This document shows positions 29,591 to 32,468 of a DNA stretch of 64,000 bases, in pieces. The notes beneath the pieces were generated by a model that was not told where the DNA came from, did not search any database, and worked only from the letters and a program-made list of their open reading frames with translations. The position numbers were made by a program, and so were the translations under genes. Source of the stretch: Hyperoplus lanceolatus (Eukaryota > Chordata > Actinopteri > Uranoscopiformes > Ammodytidae); assembly GCA_026929865.2 (NCBI GenBank), contig CM049414.1:22067501-22131500 (forward strand), given 5' to 3'. The stretch's first letter is position 1, and every line of letters starts with the position of its first letter.

Positions 29591-30140
29591 AAAATTATTG
29601 AAAATTACAGACTAATAACCTGAGCACAATGTCAATGTCACTTACATATCAATATTGTAAAGAATAATACAGGCCAGCAGTCAGACCTGTTTTTGAATAC
29701 TTTTGCAGAAGTGTTTTGACTACCAGTTAAGAAATGGAACAGGCCAAATACAAGGCCACTTCACACTTTATACACTTGGCATTGTCACAGAAAAACTGAA
29801 CTGTGCTGAACTGATCTTAAAAGCTGAAGCAATTACATTAAAATTGACTGTGTATTGGACTGCAGATTCTTAAAAAAAAAAAAAAAAAAAAAAAAAATGT
29901 ATGGTTTTATGTGTATAGGGGAAGGTGGGGTGATTTGTGCAACTTTTTACTCAAAGTGATTTTAAAGTGAGGCCTTGACAGTTATGTCTCCAACTCAAAT
30001 ATGTACATATATTTCAGGATGTTGTGCATCCCTGGCAATAAAAACTTTGGATCTGGAATAAACTGTTTAAGAAATATAGCTTTCGGAAAAAAAGTTGTCT
30101 TGTCGCACAAATCACCCCACGTAGTGGGGTGATTTGTGCG

Positions 30141-30365
30141 TCATTGTGTCACAATGACAAAGTCACCATCATCATCTTTCTGGCCATCTGAACTCTCATC
30201 AGTGGTGTCGTTAAGTGGAATTGAGATGTCACTCTCTCCTGAGCTACTGTAGACTATCACTTTCTTTTGGTGACCAGCGTATACAGCCATGCCACTGGCA
30301 CAACTCTCAGAAATGTACTTTGCACTAGTTGCTCCGTGCTTGTGGAACCAACTGCCACCTGACAA
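30141..30365 (-). pseudogene. Acidic 74-codon frame in palindrome arm (mirrored at 31,779-32,003)
   Basis: The C-terminal half is acidic and Ser-rich (KKVIVYSSSGESDISIPL, then DESSDGQKDDDGDFVIVTQ and a stop next to a terminal-repeat motif). It resembles the C-terminal end of a transposase that terminates just inside the element's end. The N-terminal part is antisense to the captured LINE piece, so the start is artificial. It is identical on the opposite arm. I do not recognise the family. Confidence 0.4.
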
Positions 30366-31041
30366 ATGTGATTCCCCCTACATTTCTGCCTTTAAATCAA
30401 GGCTCAAAACCCATATGTACACCCTGGTGTTTCCTCCCCATTAACCTCTGCACTACTTACTTACCTCTGCACTACTATCTGTGTTTATGTGGATGTATGG
30501 GCTTTACGTCTTTGATTTTGGTTATTGTTATTTTACCTTCATTGTTTACCTACTGAATGCACTATGTACAGCACTTTGGACAGTGCAAACTGTCATAAAT
30601 GTGCTTTTATAAATACATTTTACTTACTTACTTACTTATAACTCACCCAGGCCCTTGCGCACAAATCACCCCATCCCCAGAATTTTGGATAATAGGCATG
30701 ATGCAGCAATTTAGGGTTGACATTGTGCTAACTATATAGACTCAAAGTGTAGCATACCAAAGCACTAAAACATGTGTCAAATGTTTTCAAACGTGTCTAT
30801 AATTGTTCAGACACAATAATCAAAAAACCTTGATCATGGAAATTTTACTTTGAAAGGCAAAACACAGTTTTTTGAGCTTAAATGTGCTTATATCTTATTC
30901 CTTGTGTCTCCCTTCTTTACAGGATGAGTCAAATGGATGGCTCTTCTTAAATATGTGGTCACATTTCCAATTTCTTCCACGGTTTTCTAGAAACAAGGGG
31001 TTTTGCAACTTCCAAAATGCACAAATCACCCCACCTTCCCC

Positions 31042-31175
31042 TATATATATATATATATATATATATATATATATATATATATATATATATATATATATAT
31101 ATATATATATATATATATATATATATATATATATATATATATATATATATATATATTTTTTTTTTTTTTTTTTTT
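31042..31175. repeat. (TA)n plus poly-T at the palindrome centre
   Basis: About 114 bp of TA followed by 20 T, lying between the arms. Such a tract extrudes easily as a cruciform and is also a frequent cause of assembly and replication slippage. Confidence 0.97.
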
Positions 31176-32468
31176 GGAAATGTGACCACATATTTAAGAA
31201 TAGCCATCCATTTGACTCATACTGTAAAGAAGGGAGACACAAGGAATAAGATATAAGCACATTTAAGCTCAAAAAACTGTGTTTTGCCTTTAAAAGTAAA
31301 ATTTCCATGATCAAGGTTTTTTGATTATTGTGTCTGAACAATTATAGACACGTTTGAAAACATTTGACACATGTTTTAGTGCTTTGGTATGCTACACTTT
31401 GAGTCTATATAGTTAGCACAATGTCAACCCTAAATTGCTGCATCATGCCTATTATCCAAAATTCTGGGGATGGGGTGATTTGTGCGCAAGGGCCTGGGTG
31501 AGTTATAAGTAAGTAAGTAAGTAAAATGTATTTATAAAAGCACATTTATGACAGTTTGCACTGTCCAAAGTGCTGTACATAGTGCATTCAGTAGGTAAAC
31601 AATGAAGGTAAAATAACAATAACCAAAATCAAAGACGTAAAGCCCATACATCCACATAAACACAGATAGTAGTGCAGAGGTAAGTAAGTAGTGCAGAGGT
31701 TAATGGGGAGGAAACACCAGGGTGTACATATGGGTTTTGAGCCTTGATTTAAAGGCAGAAATGTAGGGGGAATCACATTTGTCAGGTGGCAGTTGGTTCC
31801 ACAAGCACGGAGCAACTAGTGCAAAGTACATTTCTGAGAGTTGTGCCAGTGGCATGGCTGTATACGCTGGTCACCAAAAGAAAGTGATAGTCTACAGTAG
31901 CTCAGGAGAGAGTGACATCTCAATTCCACTTAACGACACCACTGATGAGAGTTCAGATGGCCAGAAAGATGATGATGGTGACTTTGTCATTGTGACACAA
32001 TGACGCACAAATCACCCCACTACGTGGGGTGATTTGTGCGACAAGACAACTTTTTTTCCGAAAGCTATATTTCTTAAACAGTTTATTCCAGATCCAAAGT
32101 TTTTATTGCCAGGGATGCACAACATCCTGAAATATATGTACATATTTGAGTTGGAGACATAACTGTCAAGGCCTCACTTTAAAATCACTTTGAGTAAAAA
32201 GTTGCACAAATCACCCCACCTTCCCCTATAGCTATATATAAAAAAAATTAGTTTTTTGTTTTATTTTTATTTTCTGTAACAGTAACTGTGTATCTGAATC
32301 CGAATTTGATGAAAATGGGGGCGGGACCTGATAAGCCTTTGGCTTCTTCCGTCTCCCTTCGGACAACACAAAGTATGATGTATGAATATTTGCAAGAGAA
32401 AATTGTGTATTGTGTGGAATTGTCCGAAAGAATAATAAATAAATAAATAAATAAATAATAATAATAAC

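Follow-up and report, generated by a model that had tools for sequence, protein, structure and literature searches.

The palindrome at 29918-32226 is real: over 2.3 kb, a complete 1,124-bp transposon faces an inverted 1,051-bp copy of the same element. The window, by which we mean the whole 64-kb stretch of DNA that was analysed, corresponds to C20:22067501-22131500 of the 807-Mb genome. The size of this genome, its Ig-like frames and the presence of LINE and Tc1-type elements suggest that the host is a teleost fish. We propose that a local inverted hop made a near-perfect palindrome, the centre of which later broke and was repaired inaccurately on one side, and we give this reading a probability of about 0.5. 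The element itself is a non-autonomous TA-target transposon belonging to a large young family. Both the element and its doubling are ordinary, the inverted pair being of a known transposon kind.

The left arm (29918..31041, + strand) is the complete 1,124-bp TIR element. Its outer 24-bp TIR (29918..29941, +) is immediately preceded by TATA, and its inner TIR (31018..31041, -) is intact. The spacer consists of a (TA)57 tract (31042..31156) and a T20 run (31156..31175), the latter where the right arm is broken at its inner end. The right arm (31176..32226, -) is an inverted copy devoid of the inner 73 bp, and its outer TIR (32203..32226, -) is directly followed by TATA. The arms mismatch at 3 of 1,051 bases, the perfect TIR is 24 bp long, and the symmetry extends beyond the TIR tips for four bases (TATA) only. 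These measurements confirm the coordinates, the 1,051-bp arms, the complete left copy of 1,124 bp and the loss of 73 bp from the right copy that an earlier note on this DNA had given. They likewise bear out its spacer of (TA)n plus poly-T and its count of exactly three substitutions close to the centre, and support its description of two head-to-head TIR-element copies with the right one truncated at the inner end. Among the 25 longest of the 842 listed inverted repeats of the window, the palindrome is the longest that is both close-set and near-perfect. The sequence GCACAAATCACCCCA, searched with ≤2 mismatches, occurs nine times (0.16 expected), always within the palindrome, and no further copy of the element was found in the 64-kb window outside it.

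Palindromes and a (TA)57 tract are hard to sequence, and the genome that we searched is the same assembly as the window; nevertheless, we regard an assembly or library artefact as very improbable. A read folded back on itself would produce two identical arms that continue into mirrored flanks, but the arms in the window end at the TIR tips, are unequal in length and have 3 differing bases. Inverted pairs are also present at C3, C9 and C12, although in the same assembly.

The window contains other repeats. Positions 1-8207 and 51028-59211 form a direct repeat with 95.6% identity over 8.3 kb, about 51 kb apart, which is a segmental duplication. Four collinear stretches with 85-91% identity are shared between 8209-11922 and 16378-19379, near an Ig V-set frame at 12533-12967 (-), and probably represent a local gene-cluster duplication. 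A Tc1-type element at 35748-37385 looks recently active on its sequence features: its 288-bp TIRs are 99% alike, and its 350-aa frame, which is uninterrupted, matches DDE_3 and HTH.

The copy number of the family was estimated from two words: an internal 26-mer of the element occurs 2,482 times and a 31-mer close to its right end 2,878 times in the genome. A DNA search of the genome gave 951 candidates, of which the best 40 were scored; these are the best matches and not a random sample. The 39 best-scoring copies other than the left arm are identical to each other over all 1,124 bp, and thus the high identity between the arms is the norm of the family. As an unselected sample, we took 40 consecutive copies on contig C1, which comprise 25 copies with both TIRs in place, 2 young copies lacking an end and 13 older divergent relatives. 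TA stands on both sides of all 39 identical copies among the best-scoring ones, as expected of a TA-target element, and TATA flanks 23/39 on the left and 14/39 on the right. The AT content around the identical copies is 0.79 in the near flank and 0.60 farther out. The 24-bp perfect TIRs, the stops in all six frames of one copy and the 2,482 internal 26-mers characterize a non-autonomous, MITE-like TIR element. An FB-like foldback element does not fit, with a TIR of 24 bp and a right-arm inner junction found a single time in the genome. The tip of the element is followed by 12 TA units in 128 exact matches in the genome; insertion into TA microsatellites, or growth of TA tracts beside the TIRs, is recurrent.

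The element lacks a complete gene, and each arm carries one 52-aa remnant frame. In the left arm this is P0001 (30144..30299, -), a putative remnant of a transposase-like frame, which shares 94% identity over 51 aa with a 79-aa ENA protein and continues differently in older relatives; its derivation from a transposase is a guess. Neither P0001 nor P0002 matched anything in Pfam, PDB yielded a single match with an E value of 0.46, and the protein search with the inner-end frame gave zero matches. Nothing was matched in Rfam. In viral contigs, the TIR 21-mer had no exact match and no relative of P0001 was present among the 17 pattern matches. The adjacent piece at 30307..30638 (+), in which a frame resembling a reverse transcriptase C-terminus (30307-30441) precedes a TTAC repeat, is presumably similar to the 3′ end of a LINE; it did not match the LINE frames of the window itself. 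The element also contains a short internal inverted repeat with 16-base arms and a 3-base loop (30101..30143, element positions 184-226), at which deletions and loop inversions recur in other copies. The hairpin region (element positions 170-234, window 30087-30151) is a hotspot, with deletions in 8 of the 25 complete C1 copies, and in several copies the 3-base loop is inverted from GTA to TAC.

Comparison with the family sequence bears on the origin of the two arms. It shows a single substitution in the left arm, 597 T>G, which recurs in the right arm together with three that the left arm does not have (935 G>T, 1006 G>T, 1026 C>A). Of the 2,482 copies, four have 597G. Besides the two arms, these are a copy on C4, which carries four 1-bp deletions and 9 substitutions counting that at 597, and a divergent relative on C19. 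The latter two are single copies with additional changes. Since both arms carry this rare allele, either they go back to the same recent source or sequence has passed between them. On its outer side the right arm stops precisely at a TIR tip, as it would after transposition, which makes a short inverted hop the simplest account; conversion from arm to arm could also explain the shared 597G. Nine-base words of the left flank, with which we looked for a LINE target duplication and an empty site, had no clear second copy.

The same data bear on the idea that the pair formed elsewhere and moved in as a unit via its outer TIRs, in the manner of a naturally formed sandwich transposon. The two outer TIRs are intact and bordered by TA, and engineered head-to-head Sleeping Beauty pairs with disabled inner ends are described as transposing as one unit (PMC4229213). 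The earlier note had read the outer TATA as a sign of such joint movement. This is not supported: TATA is common beside identical copies of the family and TA invariable, so that such flanks are expected around any copy and are uninformative on movement as a unit. The inner TIR of the left arm has remained intact and might compete. Only one copy of the pair was seen in the genome; we found no second compound, as the right inner junction is unique and the other two 597G copies are single and carry other changes. Joint movement is therefore highly unlikely in our judgement.

The local hop followed by a break at the centre is favored by the state of the inner ends. The three changes of the right arm (31201, 31221 and 31292; 31201..31292, -) are all G:C to T:A relative to the family and all lie ≤117 bp from the broken inner end, an arrangement with a chance of 0.0013 for a stretch chosen after the data had been seen. 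None of the changes at 935, 1006 and 1026 appeared in the alignments of the 40 unselected C1 copies, and the exact family sequence across positions 1006 and 1026 is present in 2,878 copies. 935T exists at five places in the genome including that in the window, and one of the four others, C1:25097396, seems to combine it with the ordinary bases at 1006 and 1026, as judged from coordinates. The three changes might predate the palindrome. The genome contains the inner junction of the right arm, T10-GGAAATGTGACCACAT, a single time, and the inner end of the left arm is unchanged. In mammals, long perfect palindromes are resolved through asymmetric loss at the centre. One-sided loss together with nearby changes is the trace to be expected if a palindrome broke at its centre and the break was repaired inaccurately.

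On its own strand the right arm ends in A20, and we considered whether it is a retroposed copy with a poly(A) tail. This candidate is disfavored: the opposite end of the arm coincides with a TIR tip to the base, the junction has no second occurrence in the genome, and no AATAAA or ATTAAA was seen by eye just before the tail.

The 597G shared by both arms and the clustering of the changes at the presumed switch point would also suit a fold-back inverted duplication, in which a broken strand of the TA tract folded back into the left arm through microhomology of about 2 bp, was copied outward and rejoined at TATA. Two bases (AA) are indeed shared at the junction, and human fold-back inverted duplications are outlined as having a single-copy spacer and 2-8 bp of microhomology (PMC3907307). 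However, such copying would be expected to run into the flank, but the outer TIR tip is precisely where the copy ends, and the flanks have no more than TATA in common. Transposition explains this boundary without coincidence, and we consider the fold-back route improbable.

Neighboring copies elsewhere in the genome were examined for comparison. Element tips lie ≤15 bp apart at five places with six junctions, whereas about 0.11 would be expected under uniform placement; TA preference will account for part of this excess. The adjacency pattern demands both tips and therefore misses pairs like that in the window. Three other inverted pairs were found, at C3, C9 and C12. In the C3 pair the inner ends are kept, and one mate lacks positions 177-201 in the internal hairpin. 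At C9, copies 2 and 3 are inverted; copy 3 has lost 21-84 and both lack 185-222, so that copy 2, which is also a member of a direct pair, has a deletion in the hairpin region. At C12, the mate that has lost 18-194 is an older subfamily member. Between the inverted copies at C3 (junctions 12788180-12788257; L055:2490-2549), there is a 36-bp mini-element consisting of little beyond two TIR tips, with TATATGTATATA on both sides.

These neighbors lend weight to the possibility that the window pair arose from two independent insertions in opposite orientation into the same TA tract, with gene conversion spreading 597G but sparing the inner 117 bp, and with an ordinary truncation. At C3, C12 and C21, the subfamily alleles of the two mates are not the same, indicating that neighbors are often independent insertions and not local hops, and end-to-end neighbors are in excess. 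Inverted neighbors within 205 bp are expected about 0.8 times per genome by uniform chance, and lost ends are seen in 2 of 27 young single copies. On the other hand, independent insertion requires an extra conversion step, or two independent copies carrying an allele found in 4 of 2,482, and leaves the clustering of the three changes at the break unexplained. We therefore consider it unlikely, though it deserves to be kept in mind. Conversion between neighbors is possible at L058 (C15:31661545), where direct neighbors share 927 T>G and only one mate has the 321T/338A subfamily alleles.

If a central break is a property of inverted pairs, loss of inner ends should distinguish them from other arrangements. 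Two of the three other inverted pairs (C9 and C12) show loss near the inner end of one arm, in contrast to none of the three direct pairs (C9 copies 1 and 2, C15 and C21). Unlike in the window pair, the inner TIR tip survives at C9 and C12 and the loss lies behind it. When the window is included, end loss affects 3/8 arms of inverted pairs and 2/32 others (Fisher p = 0.046); without the window pair, the numbers are 2/6 and 2/32 (Fisher p = 0.11). The 32 others are 27 young or complete single copies and 5 members of direct pairs, and the 13 older divergent copies among the 40 unselected C1 copies were excluded. We also excluded C1:3804407/3806218 as a pair, as its left member is older, divergent and 869 bp away, and did not count C1:299978/303024 as neighbors, which are about 3 kb apart and both within the 40 unselected copies. 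As this comparison was designed after the data had been seen and the sample is small, the excess of end loss in inverted pairs is a lead, not proof. A palindrome is moreover unnecessary for end loss, since two single young copies on C1, L085 and L094, lack the left 42 bp and 318 bp, respectively, and are otherwise 100% identical to the family. No inverted neighbor is present within the 2.45 kb that were covered around them.

Taken together, the local hop with a later central break would have proceeded as follows. An ordinary non-autonomous TA-target transposon would have resided in a TA-rich spot, and a second copy of the same immediate origin would have inserted in the opposite orientation into the adjoining TA tract; in the simplest case, this would have been the left arm's sister copy after a very short hop. 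This insertion would have created a nearly perfect 2.3-kb palindrome. Its centre may then have broken, so that the inner end of one arm lost 73 bp, and the repair may have left T20, and perhaps also the long (TA)57 tract, and added the three base changes beside the break. With an asymmetric spacer, now about 200 bp long, the palindrome should be more stable.

The locus as such is most likely without function. If it were transcribed through, the arms would give about 1 kb of double-stranded RNA, which raises the idea of a hairpin-RNA source silencing the family through small RNAs; maize Mu killer, proposed to act in this way, is a precedent (PMC3440606). However, a survey of oocytes of 12 vertebrates, with zebrafish among those collected, is summarized as reporting endo-siRNAs only in mouse (PMC10964541), which weighs against this idea, as does the presence of only a short remnant of a coding frame. 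We hold such a role to be extremely improbable.

With regard to the family as a whole, we tentatively raise the possibility, somewhat doubtful at this point, that its head-to-head insertions form transient palindromes that are regularly broken at the centre in the germline and mended with one-sided loss and local mutation, while head-to-tail neighbors stay intact. If this is true, a genome so rich in near-identical copies, which number in the thousands, would offer a naturally occurring series of palindrome-revision products, and in the window the track of mutations would have survived. Every base of the family sequence is known, so that losses and changes flanking the centre of an inverted pair could be interpreted as traces of repair, and direct pairs and single copies could serve as internal controls. 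Long perfect palindromes disappear quickly, which makes their processing in animal germ lines difficult to follow. Inverted transposon pairs would make this processing testable from assemblies.

In the literature that we searched on palindromes, foldback elements, multimers of MITEs, sandwich transposons, alternative transposition and duplication by fold-back, titles and abstract openings pointed to no natural pair arranged like that in the window, and the only text match to the TIR words was TATAGGGGAAGG, taken for promoter-plus-primer text. Drosophila FB and Galileo are families of long-TIR elements. The window pair resembles them in its long inverted arms, but the TIRs of its units are 24 bp long, and no second pair with this junction was found. 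Among TA-target non-autonomous TIR elements, with which the window element shares TA flanks, short TIRs, copy number and near-identical recent copies, we liken it to Tc1/mariner-pogo-like derivatives; compared with Tc1/mariner-pogo, it has only the 52-aa remnant frame, no transposase domain was found in it, and it includes a LINE-like piece. The sandwich Sleeping Beauty transposon likewise has two copies head to head with the inner end or ends out of action, but as presented it is engineered, with cargo in between and cleavage at the innermost ends abolished (PMC4229213), whereas the left inner end in the window is intact. Fold-back inverted duplications also place inverted copies around a single-copy spacer with microhomology; those outlined are large chromosomal duplications (PMC3907307), and the window pair ends exactly at transposon tips. 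Mu killer of maize is an inverted transposon duplication able to give hairpin RNA, like the window pair, but its description is of duplicated transposase sequence that silences (PMC3440606), while each arm in the window has the 52-aa remnant frame only, not an inverted duplication of transposase coding sequence. Finally, MuTAnT elements of Medicago are located in TA microsatellites like the window element; they are introduced as Mutator-like and as targeting TA microsatellites specifically (PMC4486113), whereas for the window element long TA tracts are only some of the sites.
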